From: Anaerolineae bacterium
Lineage (GTDB): Bacteria > Chloroflexota > Anaerolineae > JAAYZQ01
Direction of reading: 5' to 3'
NCBI GenBank assembly: GCA_016926595.1
Contig: JAFGOG010000357.1
Coordinates: forward strand, 1-19,256
Length of the DNA stretch: 19,256 nucleotides
Positions 175 to 18,881 of the stretch are shown in pieces. The translations under genes and the position numbers were made by a program. The notes under the pieces were generated by a model that ran no database searches, was not told the origin of the DNA, and was given only the letters and a program-made list of their open reading frames with translations. Within the stretch, counting starts at the first letter, position 1, and every line of letters starts with the position of its first letter.

Positions 175-1380
<1,206 letters not shown>

Positions 1381-1408
1381 TCCAGCCCGTTTGGGATTGG
1401 GAGAGACG

Positions 1409-3658: not shown

Positions 3659-3665
3659 CTGCCGG

Positions 3666-4316: not shown

Positions 4317-4521
4317 TCGCGCCACGCCTATTGGCGGCGCATGCTTGCCGTCGCATAACGCAGCACGGCTTCACCCAGGAGACGCGCCTGCTGGAGACGC
4401 CTGGGCTGGGATAGGATGTCCCCGGCCTGATCGGCGACGGCAGAGACGCCGTTCAACATAAACCAAGTGTGTTCTTGGCATAATGGCAGCTAACCAGTTC
4501 GATCTCAAAGGAGAACATACG
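4317..4521 (+). promoter_or_regulatory. Intergenic region with candidate operator upstream of the mannosidase
   Basis: No gene seen. CCCAGG/CCTGGG (4374-4379 and 4400-4405) could form a weak stem after the HAD gene. A symmetric element, CCAAG-tgtgtt-CTTGG (4463-4478), lies directly before a CATAAT box (4479-4484). That layout suits a repressor or activator site, but no convincing -35 is visible. The AAAGGAGA ribosome site at 4507-4514 fixes the next start at 4522. Confidence 0.35.
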
Positions 4522-7434
4522 ATGACCTCTTTTCTCACCCAGTTTACAGACCTATCCCAATCGCTTGCCTACAGCGCCCAGCGCCGGGCAAACAGGCTGG
4601 AGCGGTTTACCGCCCAGCTCCATTTCGCCCAGAAACTGGCGGCCATCCACCCGGACCAGGCCCCGGCCTGGCAGGCGTTGATCCTGGAGGCCGGCCGCCT
4701 GGTGCAGGAGGGGCTGGCGGCGGCGCGCCTCGACCTCGACGACCTGGTCGCGCGCGGAGAGGCGATCCTGGCCCCCATCGGCCAGGCTGCCAAGACCTAC
4801 ACGTTGCTGTGCGTCAGCCACGCGCACATCGACATGAACTGGATGTGGTCGTGGCCCGAAACCGTCGCCGTGGCCCACGATACCTTCCAGACGATGCTGG
4901 CCCTGCTCGACGAGTTCCCCCAGTTTATCTACTCGCAGAGCCAGGCCTCGACCTATCGTCTGATCGAGCAGTACAACCCGGCCATGTTCGAGCGGATCCG
5001 CCGCCGCATCCACGAGGGCCGTTGGGAGGTGACCGCCAGCCAATGGGTGGAGGGCGACAAGAACATGGCGAGCGGCGAGAGCATCAGCCGCCACCTGCTC
5101 TACACGCGCGCGTACATGTGGGAGAAATTTGGACTTCGGCCCGAGGACATCGAGGTCGATTTTGAGCCCGATACCTTTGGCCACCCGGCCACGCTGCCCG
5201 GGATCCTGGTCCGGGGCGGGGTCAGGTACTATTACCACTGCCGGGGCAGCCATGGCCCACACCTTTATTGGTGGGTCGGGCCGGACGGTTCGCGGCTGCT
5301 CACGTTTACCGACGTCAAGTGGTATATGTGCGCCATCGGCCCCCAGATCGCCGCTGCCCTGCCAGAGTTTGTGCTGTCCACGGGGATGAACGCCATGCCC
5401 GTCCTGTACGGGGTGGGCGACCACGGCGGCGGCCCGACCCGGCGTGACCTGCGCCGCATCCAGGAGATGAACGGCTGGCCGGTGTTCCCCACACTGGCCT
5501 TTTCGACGCTGCACCATTTCTTCCGCCGCGCCGAAAAGGAAGCGACCAACGTGCCCGAGGTCGGCGGCGAGCGCAATTTTGTCTTTACGGGCTGTTATAC
5601 CTCGCAGGCGCGCCAAAAGGCGGCCAACCGCTATGGCGAAAGCCTGCTCTTTGCCGCCGAGGCCGCGGCGACGATCGGCAGCCGCCTGGCAGGCGTGCCC
5701 TATCCATCGGCCAACCTGGAGGAGGCGTGGAAGCGTCTCCTGTTTAGCCAGTTCCACGACATCCTGCCCGGCTCGGGCGTGCGCGAGACGCGGCACTATA
5801 CCCTGGGACAGGCCCAGGAGAGCCAGGCCGCGGCCGGCATGGCTCGCAGCAACGGGCTGCGCGCTCTGGGCGAGCGGATCGACACGGCCTCGCTGCGTGC
5901 GGGCTTTGCGCGGCGCGCCGAGGACGCCTACAAAGACGCCGTCGAATCCGATCTGTCGCTGGGGGCGGGCGTGGGCTATGCCGCCGGCAGCGGCGGCGAG
6001 TCGGCGGTCAGCGTGACCCGGGCCGGCGAGCGGGCCTTTCTGATCTTTAACCCGCTGCCCGTTTCGCATCGTCGGGTTGTCGAAGCCAAATTGTGGGACG
6101 TCACCCTGGACGAGCAGCAGTGGGTGGTCACGAGCGACGGCCTCGCACCCAGGCCCGTGCAGGTGTTGGACAAAGGCAAATACTGGGGGCACGAGTTTGT
6201 GACGATCGCCTTTCCGGTCGAGGCGCCGGCGCTGGGCTATCGCGTCGTTTGTATCTCGGATCGCCTGGCTGAGTTGGCGGGGTCGGTTGAGCCCGGCCTG
6301 CCCGATCCGTGGGCGGGGACGGGTGGCTCGTGGCGCCAGGTCCAGCGGCCCGATTACACGCTGGAAAACGAATTCCTCAAGGTGCGCCTCGATCCTGCTT
6401 CGGGCGGGCTGGTCAGCCTGCTTGACAAGCGCAGCGGGCGCGAGTGGGTGCCAGAGGGCGAGCTGACCGGCGTGCTGCAATATTGCGTGGAGCGGAACGA
6501 GGGCATGACTGCGTGGGTGATCGGCCAGTTCTTGACCCAGCAGGATCTGCTCGATGGCGGGGCCTTGACCAGGATGCACGACGGCTCGTACGTGCAGCGC
6601 TGGCGGTGGAGCAGGCGCTTGGGGGCCAGTAAACTGGAGCTAGAGATCTCGCTGTGCCAGGGCGCGCCGCGCCTCGATTACAAGCTGCGCGTCGATTGGC
6701 GCGAGATGGGCGACCCCGAGCGCGGCATCCCCAACCTGCGGGTGCGCTTTCCGCTGGCCGTCGCGCAGCCGCAGACACGGGCGTATCCGCACCTGCGCTG
6801 CGAGATCCCGTTTGGCTCCATCGGCCGCCAGCCAACCGATCAGGTCGTGGCCCAACGCTGGGTGGATCTGTCGGAGGAGGATGGCGCCGGCGTGACCCTG
6901 GTCAATTCGTCCCGGTACGGGTTTGGCCTGGAGGCGCAGGCCGTGAGCATGACCCTCTTGCGGGCCAGCATCGACCCCGATCCGTTGCCCGACCTGGGCG
7001 AGCACGTGATCGAGTACGCGCTGCTGCCGCACCTCGCGGGGTGGACGGAAGGGCAGGCGATGCGCGCCGGCGAAGAGATGAACATCCCGCTGGCCGTGTC
7101 GAGCTGCGGCTTTCACGATGGCGACCTGCCCGCTGTCAAGGCTTTCCTGGAACTGGGACAGGACAACGTGCGCCTGGCGGCGGTCAAAGAGAGCCAGGAG
7201 AAGGACGGTGGGCAGGGCGGAAACGCGCTCATCCTGCGCCTGGTCGAGGTCGAGGGACGCGACACCCAGGCCGGGCTGCTCATCGCTCCGGAACTGCTGC
7301 CGCCCGACGCCGAGGCGATCGAAGTCGATACGCTGGAACGGCCCATCGCCGGCAGCACTCGCGTTCGCCTGGAAGGGGATGTGCTGCGCGTCAAGATGCC
7401 CGCCTTTGGCATCGTGACGGTGCGGATCGTCTGA
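4522..7434 (+). CDS. GH38 alpha-mannosidase
   Basis: A 970-residue glycoside hydrolase family 38 enzyme that cleaves alpha-mannosides with retention. The zinc site and nucleophile are readable: His102 and Asp104 in HAHIDMNW, the nucleophile Asp217 in FEPDTFGHP, and His412 in SQFHDILPGS. The C-terminal half is the all-beta mannosidase region. There is no signal peptide, so it probably acts in the cytosol on imported oligosaccharides. An ATG at 4483 is in frame, but the AAAGGAG site points to 4522, and the same site style precedes the first oxidoreductase gene. Length fits bacterial GH38 proteins. It is separated from the HAD gene by about 200 bp and may have its own promoter. The stop is followed by a strong hairpin. 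Confidence 0.95.
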   Translation: MTSFLTQFTDLSQSLAYSAQRRANRLERFTAQLHFAQKLAAIHPDQAPAWQALILEAGRLVQEGLAAARLDLDDLVARGEAILAPIGQAAKTYTLLCVSHAHIDMNWMWSWPETVAVAHDTFQTMLALLDEFPQFIYSQSQASTYRLIEQYNPAMFERIRRRIHEGRWEVTASQWVEGDKNMASGESISRHLLYTRAYMWEKFGLRPEDIEVDFEPDTFGHPATLPGILVRGGVRYYYHCRGSHGPHLYWWVGPDGSRLLTFTDVKWYMCAIGPQIAAALPEFVLSTGMNAMPVLYGVGDHGGGPTRRDLRRIQEMNGWPVFPTLAFSTLHHFFRRAEKEATNVPEVGGERNFVFTGCYTSQARQKAANRYGESLLFAAEAAATIGSRLAGVPYPSANLEEAWKRLLFSQFHDILPGSGVRETRHYTLGQAQESQAAAGMARSNGLRALGERIDTASLRAGFARRAEDAYKDAVESDLSLGAGVGYAAGSGGESAVSVTRAGERAFLIFNPLPVSHRRVVEAKLWDVTLDEQQWVVTSDGLAPRPVQVLDKGKYWGHEFVTIAFPVEAPALGYRVVCISDRLAELAGSVEPGLPDPWAGTGGSWRQVQRPDYTLENEFLKVRLDPASGGLVSLLDKRSGREWVPEGELTGVLQYCVERNEGMTAWVIGQFLTQQDLLDGGALTRMHDGSYVQRWRWSRRLGASKLELEISLCQGAPRLDYKLRVDWREMGDPERGIPNLRVRFPLAVAQPQTRAYPHLRCEIPFGSIGRQPTDQVVAQRWVDLSEEDGAGVTLVNSSRYGFGLEAQAVSMTLLRASIDPDPLPDLGEHVIEYALLPHLAGWTEGQAMRAGEEMNIPLAVSSCGFHDGDLPAVKAFLELGQDNVRLAAVKESQEKDGGQGGNALILRLVEVEGRDTQAGLLIAPELLPPDAEAIEVDTLERPIAGSTRVRLEGDVLRVKMPAFGIVTVRIV

Positions 7435-7497: not shown

Positions 7498-8919
7498 ATG
7501 TGCGCACAGTTCACGAACGGTTATGCGCTGCTGATCGGCGTCGCCGACAACAGCGTCGCTCGCTGGGCTTTGCCCGGCGTCGCCAAAGACATCGCCGTGC
7601 TGCAAGCGGTGCTGCTCCATCCCGGGCGCTGCGCCTATCCGACGGGCCAGGTCAAGGTGGTGGCCGGGCGGGAGGCCACGCAAACGGGCATCCTGGACGG
7701 GCTGGACTGGCTGCAGGGCCGCGTCCGCGCCGACGCCGAGGCCACCGCGGTGATCTATTACTCCGGGCATGGCTGGCGCGACAGCGCGGGGGCGTTCTAC
7801 CTGATCCCCTATGATGTGCGCGCCGACCGGGTCCCTTTCACCGCGCTGCGCGCCGTCGATTTTGCCGATCGGGTCGCCGCGCTGCAGCCGCCGCGGCTGC
7901 TGGTCGTGCTCGACTGCTGCCACGCGGCCGGCATGGGGGTCAAGGATGTCGTCGCGCCGCCAGCCGGCTATGTCGCGGCAGCGCTGCCGCCGGCAGTGCT
8001 GTTGGGCACGGGCGGCGGGGCCAAGAGCCTGGCCGCGCTGGCGCAAGGGCGCGGGCGGGCCGCGCTCAGTTCGTCCAGTGGCGAGCAGGCATCCTACATG
8101 CGCCAGGACGGCAGCATGAGCGTCTTTACCTATCATCTGATCGAGGCGCTGACCGGGCACGCCCAACCCAAAGAGGGGGCAACCACGGTGCTGGTCTCCG
8201 ACGTGATGAGCCACGTCTATCGGCGCGTCCCCGAGACGGTAGAACGCGAGCACGGGCAGCAGCAGACGCCGGATTTCCAGGTCAGCGGCAATTTCCCGGT
8301 TGCCCTGCTGCTGGGCGGCAAAGGGTTGGGCAAAGGGCTGCCGCCGCCCGATCCGCTGGCCGAGATGCCGGCCGCTGCCGCGCCGGCCGGCGGGCTGTGG
8401 GTGGGCGGTCACCTGATCAACACCGGCAACCTGGTCGCCGGCGACCAGACGATCCACGGCGATCTGGTATGGGGCGACAAAATCGCCGGTGACAAGGTGG
8501 GCGGGGACAAGATCCAGGCGCGAGACATCGCCGGCAGCAGTGGCGTGGCGCTCGGTCGCGGGGCGCGGTTGACGGCCACTCAGGGTGTGAACGCAGATGA
8601 GCTGGCGCGGCTGTTCAAGATCGTCTACGAGCGCATTGAGGCCCGCCCCGACGATCCCGACGTCGACAAAGAGGAGCTGATCGACACGGCGCGCCAGATC
8701 GAGCAGGAAGTGAACAAAGGCGAATCGGCCAACGCCAACAAGGTCGAACGCTGGCTGGGGGAGCTGCTGGGCATGGCCGATGACATTTTCGACGTGGTCG
8801 TCGCCTGCCTGAGCGGACCGGCGGCGGGCGTGGCTGCCGTGATCCGCAAGGTGGTGGCAAGGGCCAAAGCGGAGCGCGAGGCAAAGCAAAAACCACACAG
8901 CACCGGGCCTGTGGAGTAA
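7498..8919 (+). CDS. Caspase-like (peptidase C14) protein with GD-repeat module
   Basis: A 473-residue protein. Residues ~9-230 are a caspase/metacaspase-like p20 domain with the His91-Cys141 dyad in YYSGHGW and LDCCHAAGM. A Gly/Ala/Pro-rich stretch follows. Residues ~299-347 form a GD-rich repeat, including IHGDLVWGDKI, that is also found in the NACHT protein and the second FGE protein. The C-terminal ~105 residues are helical and charged. No signal peptide is present, so it is probably cytosolic. A strong AGGAGG site lies five bases before the ATG. In bacterial conflict systems such proteases are effectors switched on by STAND sensors, and the shared module supports pairing with the NACHT protein downstream. 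A REP-like repeat overlaps the stop codon. Protease activity and target are not shown by sequence alone. Confidence 0.9.
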   Translation: MCAQFTNGYALLIGVADNSVARWALPGVAKDIAVLQAVLLHPGRCAYPTGQVKVVAGREATQTGILDGLDWLQGRVRADAEATAVIYYSGHGWRDSAGAFYLIPYDVRADRVPFTALRAVDFADRVAALQPPRLLVVLDCCHAAGMGVKDVVAPPAGYVAAALPPAVLLGTGGGAKSLAALAQGRGRAALSSSSGEQASYMRQDGSMSVFTYHLIEALTGHAQPKEGATTVLVSDVMSHVYRRVPETVEREHGQQQTPDFQVSGNFPVALLLGGKGLGKGLPPPDPLAEMPAAAAPAGGLWVGGHLINTGNLVAGDQTIHGDLVWGDKIAGDKVGGDKIQARDIAGSSGVALGRGARLTATQGVNADELARLFKIVYERIEARPDDPDVDKEELIDTARQIEQEVNKGESANANKVERWLGELLGMADDIFDVVVACLSGPAAGVAAVIRKVVARAKAEREAKQKPHSTGPVE

Positions 8920-8955
8920 GATATCCTCCCGTGGAGTAAGGCATCCTCAGATGCC
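8911..8955 (+). repeat. REP-family palindrome at the caspase stop codon
   Basis: Two copies of GTGGAGTAAG (8911 and 8931) precede the core GGCATC-CTCA-GATGCC (8940-8955). The first copy contains the stop codon of the caspase gene, so the element abuts or invaded the gene end. Bases 8956-9020 show nothing further. Confidence 0.8.
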
Positions 8956-9049: not shown

Positions 9050-9082
9050 AGGCGCTTACAAAGCAAATCTGAGGAGCGTATG

Positions 9083-9328
9083 ATGAATGTAGTATTGGTC
9101 AAACTGAGCGAGCGCAACCAGATGGTCTTGCCCAAAGCGGCCCGCGAGGCGCTGGGGATCGCGCCCGGCGGGCGGGTGGTGGTGCTGGTCGAAGGGCAGA
9201 CTGTGCGCCTGCTGCCCGAGCCGGAGAACTGGAGCGAGTATATCTACGGCCTGGGGGCCGAGGTGTGGGCCTCTCTGGGTGGCGGTGAGCAGTTTCTGAA
9301 AGAGGAACGGTCGGCATGGGAACGCTGA
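9083..9328 (+). CDS. AbrB/MazE-type antitoxin
   Basis: A small protein (81 residues from 9083; 82 if ATG 9080 is used) with a swapped-hairpin AbrB DNA-binding domain: a short lead, then LSERNQMVLPKAAREALGI and GGRVVVL. The C-terminal part should wrap the toxin. GAGGAG at 9071-9076 is better spaced for the second ATG at 9083. Its end overlaps the PIN toxin start by 13 bases, the usual coupling of such pairs. It probably represses its own promoter and neutralises the PIN nuclease. The upstream promoter would also feed the NACHT gene, so this protein may control the whole sensor operon. Confidence 0.85.
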   Translation: MNVVLVKLSERNQMVLPKAAREALGIAPGGRVVVLVEGQTVRLLPEPENWSEYIYGLGAEVWASLGGGEQFLKEERSAWER

Positions 9329-9780
9329 GCGAACTGTCGGCCCACCTGGCGCGTGCCGAACGCCTGGCCCTGGACACGGTCGCTTTTATCTATGCCTTTG
9401 AGCATCACCCCGACTATGGGCCGCCCGCGCGGGTGGTCTTCGATGCGCTGGAGGCAGGCCTATGCCGGGGCTGCGCCTCGACGTTGGCGCTGGGCGAGGT
9501 GCTGGCCGGCGTCCACAAGGCCGGCGACGCCGAGCTGGCGCTGCACTACCGCGACGTGCTGACCCGTTTTCCAGGGCTGACGCTGGTCGACGCCGGCGTC
9601 CCGGTGATGGAACGGATGGCCAACCTGCGCGCACGTTACGGCCTGCCCACGCCGGATGCCATCCACCTGGCCACAGCGCTGCACTGGGGAGCGCAGGTCT
9701 TTGTCAGCAACGACCTGCGCCTGCGGCGGGTGCAAGAGATCGAGGTTGTCCTCCTGTCCGAGTGGAGAGAGGTGCAATGA
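9316..9780 (+). CDS. PIN-domain ribonuclease toxin (VapC-like)
   Basis: A 154-residue PIN domain. The acidic metal-binding set is readable: Asp20 (LALDTVAFIYAFE), Glu61 (ALGEVLAG), Asp114 (TPDAIHLATAL) and Asp133 (SNDLRL). Relatives cut tRNA, rRNA or mRNA and are held inactive by the co-encoded antitoxin. The start overlaps the antitoxin gene. The stop codon overlaps the ATG of the NACHT gene (ATGA at 9777-9780), so toxin and sensor are translationally coupled. It may be a stabilising addiction pair or a second effector arm of the sensor system. The RNA target is unknown. Confidence 0.88.
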   Translation: MGTLSELSAHLARAERLALDTVAFIYAFEHHPDYGPPARVVFDALEAGLCRGCASTLALGEVLAGVHKAGDAELALHYRDVLTRFPGLTLVDAGVPVMERMANLRARYGLPTPDAIHLATALHWGAQVFVSNDLRLRRVQEIEVVLLSEWREVQ

Positions 9781-12700
9781 GCACATTTGACCGTGAATCC
9801 TGGAAAACGCGCGTGGCCGAATGGTGGCAAGAGGCCGCGCGCGACCTGCCCGGCGCGTTCAAGCGCTGGGGGGTGCGCAGCGCCTACGGGCTGCTCACCG
9901 CCTCGGCCTGGCTGCCGCTGCTGGAAGCGTATGGGCAAGACCCCGGCGCGGCAGTGGCCACGGCGGCTGCCGTCGTGAGTGGCGTGGGGACCAACCTGCT
10001 CTCCAACCTGGTGCAGGGGACGTACGACCGCGCCAGCGCGCCGCGCCGGGCCGAACAGGAGGTGCAGGAAAACGAGGCCCTGCGCGCCGAGCATCGCCAG
10101 ATCGTCGAGGCGCTGGACGTGATCGCCGCGGCGCAGGCCGCGCTGGGCGAGCGGTGGGAGGCCTTTTACCAGCAACTGTGCACAGAGGATCGGCAGTTGG
10201 GCGGCGCGCTGCGCATCGAGACCGGCGGCGGAGCCTATTTTGCCGGCAGTGTCGACAACCGGGGCATACTGGTCGGGCGCGATCAGGTGATCCAGGGCGA
10301 TTGGATTGAGGGCGACAAGGTGATGGGCTCCAAGTGGCAGGTCGTCCTTGGCGACCAGTATATCGGCATGTCGCTCGACCAGGTGGCGCCGGAAACTCTG
10401 CTGGAGGCGTATCTGCGCTGGCTGGCCGATGACTGCCGCCGCCTGCCGCTGGGCGTCGTCGATCCGCGCTTTGTACGTGCGGGCAGCGAGTCGCCGGTAC
10501 CACTCGACCGGGTATACGTCGACCTGGATGTGCTCTCTCCGCCCAAGGAAGAGGCACCCGAGGGCGAGCGGGTTCTTTGGGGCCGCCTGATGCGCGGCGA
10601 GGGCGGCGAACGCACGCCACTTCTTGAAGCGATCTCTCATCCCAAACTGACTCGTTTTGTCCTGCTCGGCGACCCCGGTTCGGGCAAAACGACCTTTGTC
10701 AACTATCTTGCCTATATCCTCGCTTCGAGCGGCGAGATCGCACAGGCCGATGCCTTTCACGATCTGCTGCCGATTCGCCTGGTGCTGCGCGATGTGGCTG
10801 CGCACTGCATCCCGTCTGGCGCGACTCGCGGGCAGGCGTCGATGCTGTGGGCAGCCCTGCGCGCCGACCTCGTCGCGCGGCTGGACGACGACGCGGCGGC
10901 GGCGCTCTGGCCCTGGCTGCAAAAGCGGCTGCTGCGGCAGGGTGGCGTGTTCTTGCTCGACGGCCTGGACGAGGTGCCCGAATCGGACCAGCGGCGGCGC
11001 TGCCTGCTGCAAGCCGTCGCCGAGCTGAGCGCGCAGCTCCCCGGCCGGAGCCGTGTGATGGTCACGGCACGTCCCTATGCCTACACCGACCCCCAGTGGC
11101 GGCTGGAGGGGTTTGTGACATTGATCCTGGCTCCTTTTGACGACGGCCAGGTGCGGCGCTTTGTCGAGTGCTGGTACCAGGCTGTGCGTCCGGCGATGGG
11201 CTGGGATGAGACTACCGCGCGCGGTCGCGGCGAGCGGCTGTTGAGCGGGCTGGAAGAGCGGCCCTACCTGGCCGACCTGGCCGTGCGCCCCCTGCTGCTC
11301 ACGCTGATGGCCACGCTGCACACCAGTTGGGGCCAACTCCCCGAAGACCGCGCCGAGTTGTACGAAGAGACGGTCAAGCTGCTGCTCAGCCGCTGGCAGC
11401 GTGCGCGAGAGACCATGGATGAAGCGGGCCAGCCGGTGATTGAGCCAGGCATCGCCCGCGCGCTGCAAGTGGAAGAAAGCGTGGTGCGCGCCGCGCTGCA
11501 TCGCCTGGCCTACGATGTGCACGCGCGCCAACGCGCCGACGCCGGGCGCACAGAAAGCGATGCTGGTCCCGCCGACATTGGCATAGGCGAGGTGCTGGCC
11601 GCTTTTGCGCCGCTGCTGCCCGATGGGTTTGACTCTCGCCAACTGCTGGGCTACCTGGAAACGCGGGCCGGGCTGCTGATCGGGCGCGCTCCCGGCGTCT
11701 ATGCCTTTCCGCACCGCTCCTTCCAGGAATACCTGGCGGCCTGCTTTTTGGCTGAGGGGATCGACTTTGCGCGCGCGCTGCGCGACTTGGTGTGTGCGGA
11801 CTATGACTGGTGGCGGCAGGTCTTTTTGCTGGGCGTGGGCAAGGCGCGGCAGGGCGGTCTGGGCAACGCCGTGTCGGTGGTCAACACCTTGCTGCCTGAA
11901 GGGCCGGACGAGGTCGAAGAGCGGCAGGAGATAAATTGGCAGGCGGCGATTCTGGCCGGGGAAGCCCTGCTCGACCTGCGTTTTCCCGATGCGGCGCGCG
12001 GCAAAGCCGACCTGGAAGCCGTGCTCAAGCGGGTTCGCCGCTGGCTGGCCGCGCTGCTTGAGACGCCGGATGCACTGGCGCCCCGCCCGCGCGCCGGAGC
12101 GGGCGATTTGCTGGCCCGCTTGGGCGATCCTCGTCGTGGCATTTACACACTGCCCCTCGTCCTTTCAGAGAGAGGGGATGGGGTGAGGGTGCCCGACGTC
12201 ATTTGGTGCGAGGTGCCTGAAGGGCCGTTCCTGATGGGCAGCGACGACCAGGATGCCGACCAGGACGAAAAGCCGCCGCGTACCCTGGCTCTGCCCGGGT
12301 TCTACATCGCCCGCTACCCGATCACCTATGCCCAGTTCCGGCCCTTTGTCGAGGCCGGCGGCTATGACCGTGCCGCATACTGGACACCCGAAGGCTGGGC
12401 CTGGCGCGAGGGCGCTGAAGCCGACCTGTCGGTGATTGACGATGCGAACCTTCGTGAAAGCTATGTGACCTGGCTGGCGCGACGGCCCAAGGAAAGGCGC
12501 GATCGCCCCTATTGGTGGGATGATCCGCGCCTGGGACTGGCCAATCGCCCGGTGGTTGGCGTGAGCTGGTACGAGGCGATGGCCTACTGCTGCTGGTTGG
12601 AAGAACAGTCAAACGTTGCAGGTTGTCAGTTGCAAGTTTGGCGGGATGGTCAGCTTTCAACTTGTAACTTTCAACGTCTAACGATCTCCCTGCCCTCCGA

Positions 12701-13121
12701 AGCCCAGTGGGAGAAGGCGGCGCGCGGCACCGATGGGCGCAAGTGGCCCTGGGGGAACGAATGGGCTGAAGGGAAGGCTAATACTCAGGAGGCGGGCATC
12801 GGCCAGACCAGCGCAGTGGGCTGCTTCCCGGGGGGAGTGAGTCCCTACGGCTGCCTGGACATGGCCGGGAACGTCTGGGAGTGGACGCGCAGCAAGTGGG
12901 GAAAAAGCAGCATTCGCCGGCCTGACTATGGCTACCCCTACGATCCGGCCGATGGGCGCGAATCATTGGATGGCACCGATCTCCGCGTTGTGCGCGGCGG
13001 CGCCTGGAACAACACGAGCAGGCTCGCGCGCTGCGCCTTTCGTGACAGGTACTTCGGGGGCAGCTGGTACGACAACATGGGATTTCGGGTGAGTGTGTCC
13101 CTGGCTGGTTCTGTCTTCTGA
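9777..13121 (+). CDS. NACHT STAND ATPase with C-terminal DGR-diversified FGE/C-lectin domain
   Basis: A 1114-residue NLR-like protein. Residues 1-148 are helical. Residues 149-197 are a GD-rich repeat (IQGDWIEGDKV). The NACHT ATPase has Walker A GDPGSGKT (298-305), Walker B LLDGLDEV (Asp395, Asp398, Glu399) and VTARP (429-433), with a typical HRSFQEYLAA near 646. Residues ~810-1110 form an FGE-sulfatase/C-type-lectin fold. Its last part (1070-1108) is variable repeat 1 of the retroelement. The Cys pair of true FGE enzymes is not evident there, so it is probably a binding domain. ATG 9777 overlaps the PIN stop and follows GAGAGG. Two in-frame repeat-like insertions lie at 12152-12191 and 12608-12684. 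Likely role: ligand sensing by the lectin fold, NACHT oligomerisation, and activation of caspase or PIN effectors. Confidence 0.92.
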   Translation: MSTFDRESWKTRVAEWWQEAARDLPGAFKRWGVRSAYGLLTASAWLPLLEAYGQDPGAAVATAAAVVSGVGTNLLSNLVQGTYDRASAPRRAEQEVQENEALRAEHRQIVEALDVIAAAQAALGERWEAFYQQLCTEDRQLGGALRIETGGGAYFAGSVDNRGILVGRDQVIQGDWIEGDKVMGSKWQVVLGDQYIGMSLDQVAPETLLEAYLRWLADDCRRLPLGVVDPRFVRAGSESPVPLDRVYVDLDVLSPPKEEAPEGERVLWGRLMRGEGGERTPLLEAISHPKLTRFVLLGDPGSGKTTFVNYLAYILASSGEIAQADAFHDLLPIRLVLRDVAAHCIPSGATRGQASMLWAALRADLVARLDDDAAAALWPWLQKRLLRQGGVFLLDGLDEVPESDQRRRCLLQAVAELSAQLPGRSRVMVTARPYAYTDPQWRLEGFVTLILAPFDDGQVRRFVECWYQAVRPAMGWDETTARGRGERLLSGLEERPYLADLAVRPLLLTLMATLHTSWGQLPEDRAELYEETVKLLLSRWQRARETMDEAGQPVIEPGIARALQVEESVVRAALHRLAYDVHARQRADAGRTESDAGPADIGIGEVLAAFAPLLPDGFDSRQLLGYLETRAGLLIGRAPGVYAFPHRSFQEYLAACFLAEGIDFARALRDLVCADYDWWRQVFLLGVGKARQGGLGNAVSVVNTLLPEGPDEVEERQEINWQAAILAGEALLDLRFPDAARGKADLEAVLKRVRRWLAALLETPDALAPRPRAGAGDLLARLGDPRRGIYTLPLVLSERGDGVRVPDVIWCEVPEGPFLMGSDDQDADQDEKPPRTLALPGFYIARYPITYAQFRPFVEAGGYDRAAYWTPEGWAWREGAEADLSVIDDANLRESYVTWLARRPKERRDRPYWWDDPRLGLANRPVVGVSWYEAMAYCCWLEEQSNVAGCQLQVWRDGQLSTCNFQRLTISLPSEAQWEKAARGTDGRKWPWGNEWAEGKANTQEAGIGQTSAVGCFPGGVSPYGCLDMAGNVWEWTRSKWGKSSIRRPDYGYPYDPADGRESLDGTDLRVVRGGAWNNTSRLARCAFRDRYFGGSWYDNMGFRVSVSLAGSVF
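12152..12191 (+). repeat. G-rich repeat-like segment inside the NACHT gene
   Basis: CCCCTC, a short gap, then GAGAGGGGATGGGGTGAGGG. It resembles the purine-rich repeats common between genes in high-GC filamentous bacteria, and the spacer after each FGE gene has a similar style. Here it is translated as the linker just before the FGE domain and stays in frame. Confidence 0.4.
12608..12684 (+). repeat. In-frame low-GC palindromic insertion in the FGE domain
   Basis: About 77 bp of AT-richer DNA with imperfect inverted halves: GTTGCAAGTT at 12629-12638 against AACTTGTAAC, and AAACGTTG against CAACGTCT. It adds roughly 27 residues between EEQ and ISLPSEAQWEK. The second FGE protein runs straight from CRWAG into LALPSEAEWEK. 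The insertion looks like a dispersed repeat that landed in frame. Confidence 0.6.
12983..13100 (+). repeat. DGR variable repeat 1 (VR1)
   Basis: 118 bp colinear with TR 14862-14979. There are thirteen substitutions, all opposite TR adenines: 7 A-to-G, 5 A-to-T and 1 A-to-C. They change ten residues of the NACHT protein within 1070-1108. The 3' end from AACATGGG onward is identical to TR and would hold the homing-initiation sequence. Confidence 0.97.
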
Positions 13122-13176
13122 ATGCTGAATTCTGATTTCTGGATCCTGTTTTTTCTGTTTTCTGAGGGGAGAGGGT

Positions 13177-13208
13177 TTGGGAGAGGGGACGAATGTCCCC
13201 TCTCCCAA
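13177..13208. promoter_or_regulatory. Hairpin/cruciform downstream of VR1
   Basis: TTGGGAGAGGGGAC, loop GAAT, then the exact complement: a 14-bp stem with a 4-base loop, 76 bp after VR1. The same hairpin at the same distance follows VR2. In the Bordetella phage DGR a stem-loop near the VR end promotes retrohoming, so this is a candidate equivalent. It could instead act as a terminator for the NACHT transcript, though no T-tract follows. Confidence 0.7.
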
Positions 13209-13220
13209 GATCGATACTTA

Positions 13221-13349
13221 CGAGGAGCGAGATCCGCCCGAGGAGCGAGGCATCCTCAGATGCCGGACTCCACGATGGGGGACCATTCTGTGGAGCGAGG
13301 CATCCTCAGATGCCGATCTGCCGGCAGGATGCCGGCGGTCCGAGGACAC
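13221..13349 (+). repeat. REP cluster in the leader of the reverse transcriptase gene
   Basis: Two full REP cores, GGCATCCTCAGATGCC, at 13249-13264 and 13299-13314, each preceded by a GAGCGAG lead. The tail, 13331-13359, runs through the reverse transcriptase start codon and recurs at 18135-18163 with one mismatch. Confidence 0.8.
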
Positions 13350-14426
13350 ATGGTCAAACGGTACGGCAACCTATACCCGCAGGTTTATTGCTTTGAGAAC
13401 CTCTACCTGGCCTTCGTGGACGCGGCGCGGGGCAAGCGGGGCCAGCCCAACGTGGCTGCGTTCGAGTTTGACCTGGAGGGCAACCTGGTGCAGCTCCGGG
13501 ATGAACTGCAAGCCAAATGCTACCGGCCCGGCGGCTACGAGTCGTTTTACATCCACGACCCCAAGCACCGCCTGGTCTCGGCCGCGCCGTTCCGCGACCG
13601 GGTGGTGCACCACGCGCTGTGCAATGTCATCGAGCCGGTTTTCGAGCGCACCTTTATCGGCGACTCGTACGCCAATCGGGTGGGCAGGGGCACCCACCAG
13701 GCGCTGGACCGGGCCCAGGCGTTTTCGCAGCGCTACCGCTACGTCTTGCAGTGCGACGTGCGGCAGTATTTCCCCGCGATCGACCTGCAGATTTTGCGCG
13801 GCATCCTGGCCCGCAAGCTGGCCGATGCCGAGGTGATGTGGCTGATCGACCAGATCCTGGACAGCGGGGCCGGGGTGCTGGCCGATGAATACGACATGGT
13901 TTATTTCCCCGGCGACGACCTGTTTGCCGCCAACCGCCCGCGCGGGCTGCCGGTGGGCAACCTGACCAGCCAGTTCTGGGCCAACGTGTACCTCAACGAG
14001 CTCGACCAGTTCGTCAAGCGCGAGCTGCGCTGTGGCCAGCGGCGCGGCGCGTACGTGCGTTACGTGGATGATTTTGTGCTCTTTGCCGACAGCAAGGAGC
14101 AGTTGTGGGCTTGGAAGGAGGCGGTGCAGGATCGCCTGGCCGGCCTGCGCCTGACCCTGCACGAGCGGTCGAGCACGGTCTACCCGGTGCGAAATGGCAT
14201 CCCGTTCCTGGGGTTTCGCGTCTATGCCACGCACCGGCGGCTGCGGCGGCGCAACGGGGTGGCCTTTGCCCGGCGCTACCGCCTGTACCGGCGGATGGTG
14301 CGGCGCGGCGAGATGACCGCGCGGCAGCTCACCCGGCGCGTGCAGGGCTGGGTGGCCCACGCCAAACACGGCAACACCTACCGGCTGCGGCGGTCGCTGC
14401 TGGGGGATGTGCTGGCACAACGATAG
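13350..14426 (+). CDS. DGR reverse transcriptase
   Basis: A 358-residue RNA-dependent DNA polymerase of the DGR clade. The first catalytic Asp is Asp136 in QCDVRQYFPAID, and the YVDD box is residues 238-241 (YVRYVDDFVLF). The clade-typical LPVGNLTSQFWANVYLN precedes it. Early motifs (FYIHDPKHR, FRDRVVHHAL, DSYANRVGRGTHQA) also fit DGR and group II-related enzymes, but no maturase or endonuclease domain is present. ATG 13350 gives the normal size and N-terminus; the reading frame stays open upstream through REP DNA to 13122, which is unlikely to be coding. The ribosome site (GAGGA) is short. It copies TR RNA into adenine-mutagenised cDNA together with Avd. Confidence 0.96.
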   Translation: MVKRYGNLYPQVYCFENLYLAFVDAARGKRGQPNVAAFEFDLEGNLVQLRDELQAKCYRPGGYESFYIHDPKHRLVSAAPFRDRVVHHALCNVIEPVFERTFIGDSYANRVGRGTHQALDRAQAFSQRYRYVLQCDVRQYFPAIDLQILRGILARKLADAEVMWLIDQILDSGAGVLADEYDMVYFPGDDLFAANRPRGLPVGNLTSQFWANVYLNELDQFVKRELRCGQRRGAYVRYVDDFVLFADSKEQLWAWKEAVQDRLAGLRLTLHERSSTVYPVRNGIPFLGFRVYATHRRLRRRNGVAFARRYRLYRRMVRRGEMTARQLTRRVQGWVAHAKHGNTYRLRRSLLGDVLAQR

Positions 14427-14438
14427 CGAGCAAGAACC

Positions 14439-14792
14439 GTGAAAGAATCGCCCATCTTTACCAAGTCGTATGAGCTGCTGCGCTGGCTGATCCCGCTGAC
14501 GCTCAAGTTCCCGCGCGAGCAGCGTTTCGTCGTCGCCGAGGCGGTGCAGCGCACGGCGCTGCAGTTTCACGAGCGGCTGATCGAGGCGGCCAAAACGGAC
14601 GGCGATCCGCGGCCGGTCCTCAAACAGGCCGACGTCGACCTGACCCGGCTGCGTTTTTACGTGCGCCTGTGCCGCGATTTCCAACTGATCAGCCTCAAGC
14701 AGTACGGACACGCCGCCCAACTGTTGGCCGAGGTCGGCCGCCTGTTGGGCGGCTGGATGAATCCCAAGAAAGAGAGGCCGCCCAAACCATAA
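14439..14792 (+). CDS. avd: DGR accessory variability determinant, Avd-like four-helix protein
   Basis: A 117-residue, basic, all-helical protein starting with GTG 12 bases after the reverse transcriptase stop. The N-terminal signature IFTKSYELLRWLIPLTLKF followed by PREQRF, and the C-terminal GRLLGGWMN, match the Avd family of pentameric four-helix bundles. Avd binds the reverse transcriptase and the TR-containing RNA and is needed for mutagenic cDNA synthesis. No ATG start is available nearby and the ribosome site is weak, so translation is probably coupled to the reverse transcriptase. The order RT-avd-TR differs from the Bordetella phage order avd-TR-RT. Confidence 0.92.
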   Translation: MKESPIFTKSYELLRWLIPLTLKFPREQRFVVAEAVQRTALQFHERLIEAAKTDGDPRPVLKQADVDLTRLRFYVRLCRDFQLISLKQYGHAAQLLAEVGRLLGGWMNPKKERPPKP

Positions 14793-14861
14793 GGATTCAG
14801 CCCCGGCCATGGCGCGTCGTGTGGCCGTCGCCGGGTTTGAAGGGGCCGGACCGACACGCGC

Positions 14862-14979
14862 CCGCGTTGTGCGCGGCGGCGCCTGGAACAACACAAGCAG
14901 GAACGCGCGCTGCGCCTATCGTAACAGGAACATCGAAGACAACTGGAACAACAACATGGGATTTCGGGTGAGTGTGTCC
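14862..14979 (+). repeat. DGR template repeat (TR), non-coding
   Basis: 118 bp, 70 bp after the avd stop. It holds 31 adenines in 20 codons of the target frame, nine of them AAC. Read in the VR frame it would give NNT, NRN and NNN clusters typical of DGR templates. An open frame through it is incidental. It is the donor of VR1 and VR2 and must be transcribed to act. Confidence 0.97.
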
Positions 14980-15225
14980 ATAGCGTGGCGGAAAGGGCCG
15001 GCAGAGCTTGCTATCTACGGATGCGAGACGAGGCCCGTCGAACTCAACCGGGTTCGCAAAAACCAAGCCAGCCCGGTCCGGTCCCGGTCGCGCCCGCCGT
15101 GCAGGGGCGGCGGCCGGCCCAATACAGCGCGGCTGTCGCGGGATCGGCCTGCGGCAGCCACCCTCCGCGCCCCGGCTTTGCCAGACAGAAGTCGCGGCGC
15201 GGAGGGCGCTCCCCTGCGAGTTCCT
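14980..15225 (+). other. Non-coding region after TR, possible DGR RNA spacer
   Basis: No gene seen. In the best-studied DGR, RNA beyond the TR folds with Avd and primes cDNA synthesis, so the first ~140 bases here are a candidate for that part. A small hairpin, GAACTC/GGGTTC, spans 15040-15055. Bases 15060-15200 are very GC-rich and give no persuasive protein. Confidence 0.35.
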
Positions 15226-15356
15226 AGGGCTGCTGCAAAGTCCCTTGGCAGGGTCCCAAATCAGCCGAGGAGTGGAGCATCCTCAGATGCGGAACGGTGG
15301 TTGACGAAATCGCTCGCATTTGAGAATGCTCGCTCCACTGACTTTGCAGCAGCCCT
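15226..15356. mobile_element. MITE-like element carrying two opposed REPs
   Basis: Perfect 17-bp inverted ends, AGGGCTGCTGCAAAGTC (15226-15242) and its complement (15340-15356). Ten-base direct repeats GCGAGTTCCT flank it (15216-15225 and 15358-15367), as expected of a target duplication. Inside, a REP core GCATC-CTCA-GATGC (15277-15290) faces an inverted variant (15316-15329) whose stem has paired changes. It has no transposase, so it would move in trans. Confidence 0.8.
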
Positions 15357-15375
15357 GGCGAGTTCCTGCCAGCCA

Positions 15376-15404
15376 TTGACGTGTGTCTATCGTTGTGTTA
15401 CAAT
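15376..15404 (+). promoter_or_regulatory. Sigma-70-type promoter for the second FGE target gene
   Basis: TTGACG (15376-15381), exactly 17 bp, then TACAAT (15399-15404). It predicts a transcript start near 15411 and a leader of about 115 bases. It lies just beyond the MITE-like element, so the second target may be expressed apart from the reverse transcriptase operon. Confidence 0.7.
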
Positions 15405-15526
15405 GGAGTCAGAAAGTCGGACGTTCCTACAAGCCGATCCGCAACCGGCCCTACAGACCGGGCTGCGCACCGGCACGCCGGCGATGCGCTGACCTGGCTG
15501 CGCGAGCAGGCAAATGAGGAGGGGTG

Positions 15527-17281
15527 ATGATCGACACGCAAGTCGAACCCCAAGGTGGGCTGTCCATTCAAGGCGACCTGGTCAACACGGGCAACATGGT
15601 GCAAGGCAATCAGGTGATCCACGGTGACCTGGTGCTGGGCGACAAGATCGTTTTCAACTCGCTCACTCTGTTGGTCGTGTCTGATGGCGCGCTTGGCCCG
15701 GAGCGGGAGCGGCTGCTGGAACTACTCTCTTCTCTGCCGTTAAGCCGGCCGCCGGTCGGCGACGGTGCGCCCTCTTCCGAGCCCCAGCCCGGCGAGGCCC
15801 AAGTCCCGACCTGTGGCCGGGTGTTCATTATGCTGCTTGGCAGCGATATCAACGGCTTTCTGGAAACCGAACAAAGGCGGGCCAGGGAGGCCGGCATCGA
15901 GGACCGGCTGTACCTACTCAACCTGCCGCCGGGCCAGGAGATCGATCGCGCACTGGCCGAATACCTGGGCGGCAGACAGATTTCCTTTCACGGGCCGGAT
16001 GACTTGGTGGAGAAGGCCCGGCCCGGCCTGATCGAGATGATTCTTGATCGCCTCGACCGGGTCGATCTAGAAGCGCTGCTCAAGTGGGCGATACTCTACG
16101 GCCTGGGCGCAGGCGTGCTTGTCCTGTTGCATCAGGCTATCGCGGCCAAGGCGCCGGCCGTATCATCCGGGCCTACCGTTGCTGGCGAGGGCGCCGGAAC
16201 GTCGACCGTGTCCCCTGAACGGCCGGTGACAGGTCGAGAGAGCGAAACGTCGGCCGTGTCCCCTGAATCGCCGGTGACAGGCCGAGAGAGCGAAACACCG
16301 TCGCGGCCTGCGACGGTGACGGTGCCCGCCCAACCCCTTGAACCACCTGGCGTCCCCGTGCCACAGCCACCCTTGCGCACCACTGCCGGCGGCCTGACCG
16401 TGGCCACCCCACAAAACATCCGCCAGATTTTGGCGTTGCCCGATCCACCGGAGCGACTGTGGTGGGAAAAGGCCGGGCTGGAGCTGTGCCTGGTGCCCGC
16501 CGGCGCGTTTTTGATGGGCACGCGCGAGGATGAGATTTCTGCTTTGATCGCAGAGTTTGGCAACGACCCAAGTTGGTATGAGCGAGAAATTCCTCAGCAC
16601 CCTGTTTCCTTGCCTGCTTTCTACATTGGCCGTTATCCCGTCACCCAGGCTCAGTATGCCCGCTTTGTGCAGGCTGCCGGGCACGATGTGCCTTATCGAG
16701 AGTGGGATGGGGCCAAACCCTATAACTGGGACCGTGCGTCGAGAACGCCGCCACCGGGCAAGGAAGGCCATCCGGTCAATCTGATCCATTGGCACGATGC
16801 GCTGGCCTACTGCCGCTGGGCCGGGCTGGCTCTGCCCTCCGAGGCCGAGTGGGAAAAAGCTGCCAGTTGGGAGCCGATCGCGGGGCGCAAGCGCCGCTAT
16901 CCGTGGGGCGGTCAATGGGATGCTTCTCGCTGCAACAGCTCCGAGGGCAAAAAGGGCGGCACGACGCCGGTGGGTCTCTATTCGCCACGGGGCGACAGCC
17001 ACTATGGCTGCGCCGACATGGCCGGCAACGTGTGGGAATGGACACGCAGCCGCTGGGGCGCCGACTGGTCGAAGCCGGATTTTGGCTACCCTTACGATCC
17101 TGCCGATGGTCGCGAAGATTTGGCCGCCGGGGGATACCGCGGTGTGCGCGGCGGCGCCTGGTACGATTCGCACTGGGACGCGCGCTGCGCCTTTCGCTGC
17201 AGGGACTTCGTAGACGCCTGGGGCAGCGGCATAGGTTTTCGGGTGTGCGCGAGTGTGTCCCTGGCTGGTTCTGTATCCTGA
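15527..17281 (+). CDS. Membrane-anchored DGR target with FGE/C-lectin domain
   Basis: A 584-residue protein. Residues ~11-41 are the GD-rich module (IHGDLVLGDKI). Residues ~43-180 form a mixed alpha/beta region I do not recognise (VFIMLLGSDINGFLETE); it may be Rossmann-like. A hydrophobic segment at ~187-206 (WAILYGLGAGVLVLL) looks like one membrane helix. A Pro/Ser/Thr linker contains two 16-residue repeats. Residues ~318-578 are an FGE-sulfatase-like domain ending in VR2 (538-578). ATG 15527 follows AGGAGGGG; a GTG at 15524 overlaps that site. Paralogous to the C-terminal domain of the NACHT protein (shared GYPYDPADGRE). It probably displays or anchors a variable binding domain; true FGE activity is unlikely because the expected Cys pair is not evident. 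Confidence 0.88.
   Translation: MIDTQVEPQGGLSIQGDLVNTGNMVQGNQVIHGDLVLGDKIVFNSLTLLVVSDGALGPERERLLELLSSLPLSRPPVGDGAPSSEPQPGEAQVPTCGRVFIMLLGSDINGFLETEQRRAREAGIEDRLYLLNLPPGQEIDRALAEYLGGRQISFHGPDDLVEKARPGLIEMILDRLDRVDLEALLKWAILYGLGAGVLVLLHQAIAAKAPAVSSGPTVAGEGAGTSTVSPERPVTGRESETSAVSPESPVTGRESETPSRPATVTVPAQPLEPPGVPVPQPPLRTTAGGLTVATPQNIRQILALPDPPERLWWEKAGLELCLVPAGAFLMGTREDEISALIAEFGNDPSWYEREIPQHPVSLPAFYIGRYPVTQAQYARFVQAAGHDVPYREWDGAKPYNWDRASRTPPPGKEGHPVNLIHWHDALAYCRWAGLALPSEAEWEKAASWEPIAGRKRRYPWGGQWDASRCNSSEGKKGGTTPVGLYSPRGDSHYGCADMAGNVWEWTRSRWGADWSKPDFGYPYDPADGREDLAAGGYRGVRGGAWYDSHWDARCAFRCRDFVDAWGSGIGFRVCASVSLAGSVS
16202..16297 (+). repeat. 48-bp tandem repeat encoding a linker
   Basis: Two copies, starting at 16202 and 16250, encode the near-identical 16-residue units VSPERPVTGRESET and VSPESPVTGRESET, each with two lead residues. 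They lie between the membrane segment and the FGE domain. Such repeats often vary in number between strains and set the reach of the domain. Confidence 0.85.
17138..17260 (+). repeat. DGR variable repeat 2 (VR2)
   Basis: Aligned to TR 14863-14979 it shows 21 substitutions at TR adenines, 5 at other bases (GTT to GGT, and single changes giving GAT, CAC, CGC and ATA), and a 6-base insertion TGCGCG near the 3' end (17245-17250). It is clearly a VR of this TR or of a close relative, but it has drifted more than VR1. Confidence 0.92.
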
Positions 17282-17336
17282 ATGCTGGATTCTGATTTCT
17301 GCTTCCTGTTTTTGCTGTTTTCTGAGGGGAGAGGGT

Positions 17337-17368
17337 TTGGGAGAGGGGACGAATGTCCCCTCTCCCAA
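17337..17368. promoter_or_regulatory. Hairpin/cruciform downstream of VR2
   Basis: Identical in stem and loop to the hairpin after VR1 and also 76 bp from the VR end. The block 17316-17375 matches the VR1 flank almost without change, whereas the preceding 55 bases differ at six positions. Confidence 0.7.
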
Positions 17369-17379
17369 GATCGATGCTC

Positions 17380-17442
17380 CCGTGGAGCAAGATCCGCCCG
17401 TGGAGCAAGATCCGCCTGGGGAGCAAGGCATCCTCAGATGCC
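17380..17442 (+). repeat. REP array before the RAYT gene
   Basis: Three GAGCAAG leads, two of them followed by ATCCGCC, then a full core GGCATCCTCAGATGCC at 17427-17442. It stands 25 bp before the transposase start, the arrangement usual for RAYT genes and their own REPs. Confidence 0.85.
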
Positions 17443-17467: not shown

Positions 17468-18007
17468 ATGCCGTTGAGCCATTTCCAAATCCAGGGGCAT
17501 GTCTATTACATCACCACGGTGGTGTATCGCCGCTTGCCGATTTTCGTGCGGCCTAGTTTCGTTGTTCCTTTGCTGGACAGCCTCAACTTTTATCGCTACC
17601 AGCACGATTTCAAGCTGCTGGGATACGTGATCATGCCCGATCATGTTCATCTCGTGATCTGGCCTTGCGGGTCGTCGGGCGTGCCCGAGATCATGCGCGA
17701 TTTTAAGAAATTCACGGCCGTGCGCATCATTCGCCAGGCCCAGGTTGAGGATATCCAGGCCTGGGTGGTGGCCTTCCAGCAAGCCGGGCAAGAGACCAAA
17801 CGAAGCACGAACAAAGTTTGGCAGGACAGCTATTGGGATGTGAACGTGTATACGGAGCGGTTTCTGCGGCAAAAGTTGAATTACGTGCATCGCAATCCGG
17901 TGCGGGCAGGGTTGGTCGAGGAGCCGGACGCGTATGCATATTCGAGTTACCGGAATTACGTGTTGGATGATCAATCGTTGATCGAGATCGATCGAGAATG
18001 GATGTGA
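17468..18007 (+). CDS. REP-associated tyrosine transposase (RAYT, Y1/IS200-like HUH)
   Basis: A 179-residue single-domain HUH nuclease. The metal-binding pair is His59 and His61 in MPDHVHLVIWP. The likely nucleophile is Tyr139 in LNYVHRNPVRAGLV, a RAYT signature. ATG 17468 follows AAAGAGGGA; the open frame runs upstream into REP DNA and the VR2 flank, which I do not take as coding. RAYTs cut and join single-stranded DNA at REP hairpins and are usually domesticated single-copy genes. REPs lie on both sides (17427 and 18021), and related REPs occur at 8940, 13249, 13299 and 15277, so this is the likely mobiliser of the family. Confidence 0.9.
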   Translation: MPLSHFQIQGHVYYITTVVYRRLPIFVRPSFVVPLLDSLNFYRYQHDFKLLGYVIMPDHVHLVIWPCGSSGVPEIMRDFKKFTAVRIIRQAQVEDIQAWVVAFQQAGQETKRSTNKVWQDSYWDVNVYTERFLRQKLNYVHRNPVRAGLVEEPDAYAYSSYRNYVLDDQSLIEIDREWM

Positions 18008-18470: not shown

Positions 18471-18881
18471 CTACTTGCTCGGTGGTAGGAGTACTGTGTC
18501 GATCACGTGACAGATGCCATTAGATGTCTCGATGTCAGGGATGACCACCGTAGCATCGTTGATCTTGACTTGGTTGCCTTGCACTGAGATCTTGACCGAC
18601 TCACCCAGCACCGTCTCTGCAGACGTCAGCTTGACCACATCTGCAGCCGCGACCTTGCCGCTCACGACGTGATACAGAAGGATATTCTTCAACGTTGGTA
18701 TGTCGGCCAGCAATCCTTCAACTGTACCTTTCGGGAGCTTGGCAAACGCATCATCAGTAGGGGCAAACAGCGTAAATGGTCCCTTACCGGATAGCGTGTC
18801 TACCAGGCCGGCTGCCTTGACTGCAGCAACCAGCGTCTCAAACCTGCCGTCCTTAACTGCCAGTTCTACAAGATTCGCCAT
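18471..18881 (-). CDS. Fasciclin (FAS1) domain protein
   Basis: A 136-residue single FAS1 domain. The H1 motif is [11 protein letters not shown] (36-46), then LLYHVVSGK (68-76), and an H2-like [13 protein letters not shown] near the C-terminus. No signal peptide or lipobox is seen, so it would be cytosolic or exported by an unusual route; standalone FAS1 proteins of this size are common in bacteria. The ribosome site AAAGGA lies just before the ATG on the minus strand. Codon use is less GC-biased than in the other genes of the window, which may mean a different history. FAS1 domains usually serve adhesion, but no partner is visible here. Confidence 0.92.

Follow-up and report, generated by a model that had tools for sequence, protein, structure and literature searches.

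The retroelement and its two target genes

The window analysed here, a stretch of 19,256 nt of contig JAFGOG010000357.1 from an Anaerolineae bacterium, carries a diversity-generating retroelement (DGR) whose reverse transcriptase (RT), accessory protein Avd, template repeat (TR) and two variable repeats (VR1 and VR2) all lie on the plus strand. The genes and features follow each other on this strand in the order caspase, MazE-like protein, PIN-domain protein, NACHT-FGE protein (target 1), RT, Avd, TR and FGE protein (target 2). The RT gene (13350-14426, +; RVT_1, E=3.7e-17) has a YVDD site in an open frame and most likely starts at 13350, which corrects a preliminary description of this DNA. 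Among solved structures, its best sequence match is 8ub7_A (E=7.5e-48), the RT chain in the 8ub7 complex of RT and Avd, which we take to be the RT of a Bordetella phage DGR. The avd frame (14439-14792, +) is likewise open and scores 99.1 bits against the NCBIfam model DivGenRetAVD (NF033474; cut-off 80); Bbp7 and Avd chains are among its 7 PDB matches. Repeat search and alignments placed the TR at about 14862-14984 (+), including a stretch at 14970-14984 that resembles IMH*, the TR counterpart of the initiation of mutagenic homing (IMH) site. With RVT_1, NF033474, a TR and two adenine-biased VRs in place, the preliminary description of a complete DGR with its parts in one orientation holds, and the coordinates agree with its order VR1-RT-avd-TR-VR2, in which the machinery lies between the two targets.

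VR1, TR and VR2 are three copies of one 123-nt repeat. VR1 (12983-13102, +) lies in target 1, aligns to the TR without gaps and differs from it at 14 of 32 TR adenines and at none of the 88 other bases (Fisher p=7e-10). VR2 (17137-17244, +) in target 2 looks older, with changes at 21 of 30 TR adenines and at 5 of 78 other bases (p=4e-11). Conditioned on the adenines of the VRs, mismatches number 0/18 for VR1 and 2/11 for VR2; because so few VR adenines are mismatched, the direction is read as TR to VR. The IMH-like end of VR1, GAGTGTGTCCCTGGC, was located at 13091-13105 (+) by sequence and alignment, and its TR copy at 14970-14984 carries A at two sites. Read in the VR1 frame, the TR holds 20 A-containing codons with 31 adenines; none of these codons can mutate to a stop, and the number of proteins that the TR can encode is about 2e16. 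Across all loci examined (see below), 58 of 82 TR/VR pairings show zero or one non-adenine mismatch in the best 100-nt window, the corresponding values being 0 for VR1 and 4 for VR2; higher counts at other loci may stem from gaps, the comparison being ungapped. Between VR2 and its IMH-like end (17251-17265) lies a 6-nt insertion (17245-17250, +), and retrohoming across the IMH-like end would be expected to delete these bases. Because of the insertion and the five non-adenine changes, we consider VR2 likely to have been diversified in the past and not lately, and rejected it as an equally active target. Both genes are targets by their anatomy, as first described, but the second one does not look recently rewritten.

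Target 1 (9777-13121, +), with its start most likely at 9777 (again a correction), consists of an N-terminal region with the motif described below, a NACHT ATPase (E=9.4e-11) with Walker A GDPGSGKT at residue 298 and Walker B LLDGLDE at 393, and a C-terminal FGE fold (FGE-sulfatase, E=4.6e-54). That a NACHT ATPase serves as DGR target was correctly recognized from the start: this NACHT-FGE protein, which resembles NOD-like receptors (NLRs), carries VR1, and it is the only one of the two targets in which a NTPase of the STAND class (signal transduction ATPases with numerous domains) with Walker motifs is fused to a VR-bearing FGE tip. Target 2 (15527-17281, +; FGE-sulfatase, E=1.4e-51) has the motif, a middle part without assignment, a hydrophobic stretch and an FGE fold; no NACHT match was obtained. 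Both VRs sit in the ligand-binding-type C-type lectin (CLec)/FGE fold, as judged by Pfam FGE-sulfatase and, for target 2, by model and fold search; the FGE part of its model has a block predicted local distance difference test score (pLDDT) of 81-98, and its fold matches CalU17, FGE and EgtB structures. Target 2 had been proposed to be membrane-anchored, of which the FGE part stands, but the anchor is weak, with a single hydrophobic stretch (residues 183-201, mean hydropathy 1.98) modelled at pLDDT 40-46. Upstream of target 2, a promoter-like match at 15376-15404 (10/12, TG before the second hexamer) would give the gene its own transcript; matches of that kind number 3 in the region compared to 1.2 expected.

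Variability of the sensor tip was followed in those of 120 listed NACHT-FGE homologues that exceed 800 aa and have a recognisable C-terminus (91 proteins). Mean entropy amounted to 2.72 bits at residues whose TR codon has A as its first or second base, compared to 0.64 bits in the rest of the VR (p=6e-7); the FGE part before the VR gave 1.58 bits. To judge from these homologues, the NACHT-FGE family diversifies the same A-codon residues as target 1.

Seven relatives of the RT were found in genome contigs, all from metagenome-assembled genomes named Chloroflexi and six of them Anaerolineae. Among 396 genomes, taken from the class to which one of these seven relatives belongs, the RT lineage occurs in 80 at E<=1e-60, with five RTs in one genome. 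We examined 84 DGR loci, the window included, in a first set of 44 and a second set of 40. The first set gave 48 target frames, of which 5 were dropped (wrong frames or strands); FGE was found in 43/43 of the kept targets and NACHT in 34/43. Where a TR/VR pair and a target had been called (56 loci), 10 loci, including the window, show the order target-RT-Avd-TR-target, and the commonest order is target-RT-Avd-TR (24 loci). The arrangement had been called rare; given these counts, the NACHT-FGE target and the gene order are ordinary in Anaerolineae, but an adjoining caspase is uncommon (L054 and L087 of 83 other loci). A phage as vector was dismissed, with no pattern match in viral contigs, as was a plasmid, the five best plasmid matches being cyanobacterial RTs with 46-50% identity. 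In L087 (1-12380) and L096, TR and VR lie on opposite strands.

A motif shared by the caspase and both targets

The caspase gene (7498-8919, +) encodes a Peptidase_C14 domain (E=1.1e-18) with its His/Cys pair in place (GHG at 90, DCCH at 139), followed by the shared motif and a C-terminal TCAD2 domain (E=2.4e-26). Its model matches MALT1/caspase folds, and the protein is likely an executioner. As it lies upstream of target 1 in the same direction, the earlier observation of a caspase next to an NLR-like sensor is borne out. All three proteins have in common a Gly/Asp-rich motif of 20-35 residues, which in the caspase is internal, before TCAD2 (residues 296-333; 8383-8496, +). Sequence comparison placed the other copies at residues 151-186 of target 1 (10227-10334, +) and residues 9-42 of the 15524 open reading frame of target 2 (15548-15649, +). 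The caspase copy is 68% identical to that of target 2 over 34 residues and 47% identical to that of target 1 over 36 residues. Four motif pieces matched no Pfam family at E<=10, in a search whose HMMER filters drop most matches above about 0.1, and none of four motif peptides occurred in the searched literature.

Similar pairs occur at other loci. In L047, the C-terminal motif of a CHAT protease and the start of the target 2 found there are 73% identical over 22 residues; a caspase of L054 carries the motif near its end, with 71% identity to target 1 over 24 residues; and at L048 the protein that shares it with target 2 has a zinc ribbon. In 4/4 of these loci (the window, L047, L048 and L054), which were picked because the matches had been seen, the motif of the neighbour fits the target of its own locus best, at rank 1 of 69 target N-termini. 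An unpicked count of short matches gave 6/589 same-locus pairs and 80/45,779 others (p=8e-4); the 30 of the 80 other-pair matches that were inspected are largely P-loops and low-complexity stretches. A motif pattern, drawn up after the sequences had been seen, was present in 37/120 NACHT-FGE, 52/120 caspase and 0/120 target 2 homologues and in 1/1800 shuffles.

Elsewhere, caspase and NACHT-FGE form one protein. A 1299-aa protein, P0246, aligns over residues 1-349 with residues 1-340 of the window caspase (62%) and over residues 312-1293 with residues 146-1110 of target 1 (64%); the two alignments overlap at 312-349, so that the motif is the joint of the fusion. In L087, a protein of 1385 aa aligns with residues 6-469 to nearly the whole window caspase, including the TCAD2 part (1-457, 44%), and with residues 467-1382 to target 1 (140-1110, 36%), with motif-like stretches in the linker. 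The TR of L087, on the opposite strand, matches the C-terminus of this fusion with core mismatches only at A; because of this match, the caspase of L087 is itself part of the DGR target. That two separate genes of the window correspond to a single protein elsewhere would usually indicate a working pair.

Three arguments were used by Kaur et al. 2020 (PMC7159879) for effector-associated domains (EADs): presence in the core and in a separate component, closer likeness within a lineage, and effector-core fusions. Correspondingly, the motif is found in the core component and in a separate effector of one locus (window, L047 and L054), same-locus copies are closer than copies elsewhere in the picked loci (4/4) and in the unpicked count (p=8e-4), and an effector is fused to the core in other genomes (L087 and P0246); the four motif pieces gave no match to a described EAD family in Pfam. 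By these arguments the motif would behave like a coupling adapter. Its low-confidence structure model neither supports nor excludes amyloid-type signalling.

Hairpins 3' of the targets

A 14-bp hairpin with a GAAT loop is located 56-87 nt after the stop codon of target 1 (13177-13208, +), with no T run after the stem, and the same hairpin recurs 56-87 nt after the stop codon of target 2 (17337-17368, +). Both are part of a 159-nt repeat (13091-13249 and 17251-17409, 92% identical). The DNA fold of 13122-13260 has z=-4.4, and no such hairpin was found after the TR of the window. Using a rule set after first inspection (stem of at least 8 bp, G-rich first arm, at most 130 nt from the stop codon), a hairpin was recorded in the first set after 28/42 targets, one of the 43 being too close to a contig end, as well as after 0/37 TRs and 9/279 other genes. 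The same rule gave 13/30 targets, 2/27 TRs and 9/232 other genes in the second set, whose 30 targets include three wrongly called ones (L107, L111 and L118) that were dropped from later counts. Pooled over both sets, hairpins follow 41/72 targets, 2/64 TRs and 18/511 other genes. Stems vary between loci; where a locus has two targets, both usually carry identical or similar stems (except L081). In 10 of 14 two-target comparisons a stem follows both targets, and in 8 of those 10 the similarity of the 3' flanks ends -3 to +17 nt from the stem end, the exceptions being L081 (-52) and the window (+38). These findings suggest that acceptor genes tend to be marked by a hairpin on the target side.

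Efficient homing requires such a hairpin in the Bordetella phage BPP-1, and in phage-related DGRs the stems have 7-10 bp, GRNA loops and a distance of 4-34 bp to the VR (Guo et al. 2011, PMC3240598). As the same authors mention unpublished hairpin predictions for most chromosomal DGRs, hairpins in chromosomal DGRs were foreseen. The BPP-1 DGR resembles the present one in RT, Avd, TR, VR, IMH and a hairpin after the VR, whereas the target here is a chromosomal-type NLR and not a tail fibre. In addition, the G-rich stems at the loci examined here are often longer (8-16 bp) and farther away (about 30-100 nt after the stop codon), and no 4-nt loop observed on a G-rich stem, GAAT included, fits GRNA; loops mostly have 3-4 nt.

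The window also contains a REP-associated tyrosine transposase (RAYT) gene at 17468-18007 (NF047646, above cut-off) and seven GCATCCTCAGATG-bearing (GCATCCTCAGATGC-type) palindromes at 8940, 13249, 13299, 15277, 17427, 18024 and 18073, several of which sit after VR/TR modules. RAYT- or IS200-like genes were detected in 4/84 loci with three queries, and the RAYT as a part of the system was rejected and taken as incidental.

A predicted sensor-and-executioner pair and its neighbourhood

Taken together, we regard it as rather probable that the DGR hypermutates the FGE tip of a NACHT (NLR-like) sensor, which would likely trigger the adjoining caspase. This would make a predicted sensor-and-executioner pair whose sensor could evolve fast. 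In such a pathway, TR RNA would be copied by RT-Avd with errors at A, and the cDNA would replace VR1, the acceptor being marked by the IMH and the hairpin behind it. When the varied tip binds a ligand, NACHT oligomerisation might follow, upon which the clustered motifs could engage the caspase copy homotypically and activate the enzyme, with cell suicide or dormancy protecting kin as possible outcome. The link between sensor and caspase is drawn because of the shared motif, its matching within loci, the two fusions, and the occurrence of a caspase with a MazE+PIN pair in L054 in another gene order. A more far-reaching version, in which a bacterial inflammasome with a hypermutating sensor uses a locus-specific, perhaps amyloid-like motif of a new effector-associated adapter class as relay from NLR to caspase and as the joint of evolutionary fusion and separation, is possible but tentative, and we would not expect it to hold in full.

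Several observations weigh against a sensor coupled to the caspase. Same-locus sharing of the motif was found in 4 loci only, and other two-target loci (e.g. L065, L075, L076 and L081) show no shared motif. A profile of seven motif copies recovered its own seeds; among the copies left out, it matched that of the L047 CHAT protein weakly (E=0.006) and missed those of L048, L049 target 1 and L054, so that the definition of the motif is loose. In the caspase model, the motif region has a pLDDT of about 30-40, which gives no fold support for a motif contact and would also suit a flexible linker. P0246 is encoded on a metagenome contig of 4.1 kb and may result from misassembly, recent rewriting of VR2 is improbable, and the MazE/PIN pair, with weak promoter-like matches before it, separates the caspase from target 1. 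Finally, of 12 neighbourhoods of the caspase family chosen on contigs where no RT was found, several of these contigs being short, 11 lack a NACHT-FGE gene, L138 being the exception.

Part of this evidence would fit a caspase that is an unrelated neighbour, with the motif as a common flexible linker repeat and another effector for the sensor, an explanation that we consider doubtful but serious. The disordered motif model, the interposed MazE/PIN pair and the 1/12 neighbourhoods speak for it, as does the spread of the caspase family, which at E<=1e-30 occupies 59 places in 49/396 genomes, two of them near an RT. However, these two lie within 10 kb of an RT, compared to about 0.08 expected (a rough figure that assumes 4.5 Mb per genome and 128 RT places, where the listing sums to 124), and the matching of motif sequences within a locus as well as the two fusions to NACHT-FGE, one of them jointed at the motif, argue for a tie. 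At E<=1e-6, caspases were found in L054 and, fused, in L087; a weaker match in L073 came from a search of the first 44 loci only and was not repeated in the recount over 84 loci. It is also conceivable, if unlikely, that the FGE tips bind self or environmental ligands for signalling or adhesion rather than invaders, and that the DGR tunes regulation. Target 2 lacks a NACHT match and may sit in the membrane, and such a role has been proposed for cyanobacterial DGRs (PMC7517822, as cited in PMC10907252); by analogy, a NACHT domain with a peptidase would rather suggest the make-up of proposed defence systems (PMC8195603, PMC10907252).

That the DGR is a relict, with TR and VRs recording past diversification only, appears quite improbable. 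The five non-adenine changes and the 6-nt insertion at VR2 would agree with this, but VR1 shows 0/88 non-adenine changes, the RT and Avd frames are open and the YVDD site is present. For the hairpins after the VRs, an origin outside the DGR, as transcription terminators or as repeats left by a RAYT, is likewise unlikely. In its favour, they come after stop codons, and the window holds the seven GCATCCTCAGATG palindromes and a RAYT gene. Against this, RAYT- or IS200-like genes were detected in 4/84 loci, and the hairpin is found at 18/511 other gene ends compared to 41/72 target ends; given this rarity and the missing T run behind the stem in the window, an intrinsic terminator was rejected.

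STAND/NACHT-FGE proteins with a DGR have already been described (PMC8195603, PMC10907252). Kaur et al. 2020 and 2021 name caspase among the domains of STAND-FGS proteins (PMC7159879, PMC8195603), and caspase-STAND-FGS proteins as a type are already in print (PMC8195603). These EAD-bearing systems share with the window the NTPase-FGS sensor, the DGR linkage, a homotypic adapter logic and the caspase, listed there among the N-terminal domains. Here, in contrast, no EAD or Death-like domain of Pfam fits the adapter, the motif forms the joint of a fusion, and the host belongs to the Anaerolineae. Two targets with STAND/NACHT and CLec domains are common among the clade 5D DGRs of multicellular bacteria (Dore et al. 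2024, PMC10907252). In this clade, DGR 3 and DGR 6 of Thiohalocapsa PB-PSB1 resemble the window in having two targets, a central STAND/NACHT NTPase, a VR in the C-terminal CLec/FGE tip and a nearby peptidase, and in DGR 6 an EAD8 adapter is common to the targets and the peptidase. The window differs from both by a caspase with TCAD2, a short Gly/Asp-rich motif outside Pfam and a target 2 without NACHT match. In pairs of NLR and effector linked by bacterial amyloid signalling sequences (PMC7889193, PMC12261475, PMC8086366), a short motif is N-terminal in the NLR and C-terminal in the neighbouring effector, as in L047 (CHAT) and L054 (caspase), whereas the motif of the window caspase is internal, before TCAD2; the likeness is one of layout. 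In the searched literature, outside which most subscription journals lie, we found neither the linking motif, its matching within loci or its role as fusion joint, nor a systematic target hairpin in Anaerolineae DGRs. The kind of system is known, and the motif, the motif-jointed fusion and the systematic target hairpin were not found in print in this search.

The coupling of sensor and caspase, if correct, would tie a predicted hypermutating receptor to a named executioner by a short, deletable element. According to a published proposal, multicellular bacteria gain from DGRs an adaptive defence that resembles apoptosis; this proposal would become testable with two genes, and as the architecture is ordinary in Anaerolineae, dozens of natural loci are at hand. 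The target-side hairpin could help to find more DGR targets.

Between caspase and target 1, a MazE-like antitoxin (9080-9328, +; Pfam MazE_antitoxin, E=1.9e-8) is followed by its partner, a PIN-domain protein (9316-9780, +; Pfam PIN, E=1e-13). In L054, a MazE+PIN pair (L054:15873-16660) likewise comes after the caspase, the gene order differing from that of the window. This toxin-antitoxin pair may be a guard of the locus or a part of it. Further upstream, the region 175-7434 encodes a GFO/IDH/MocA oxidoreductase, a glycyl-radical enzyme, a HAD hydrolase and a GH38 alpha-mannosidase, by its domains a sugar-degradation cluster that adjoins the defence-type locus. Neither Rfam, at gathering scores, nor a tRNA scan gave a match anywhere in the window. 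At the far end of the window lies a gene for a Fasciclin-domain protein (18471-18881, -), and a 41-nt repeat in three tandem copies (1-123) forms its very start.

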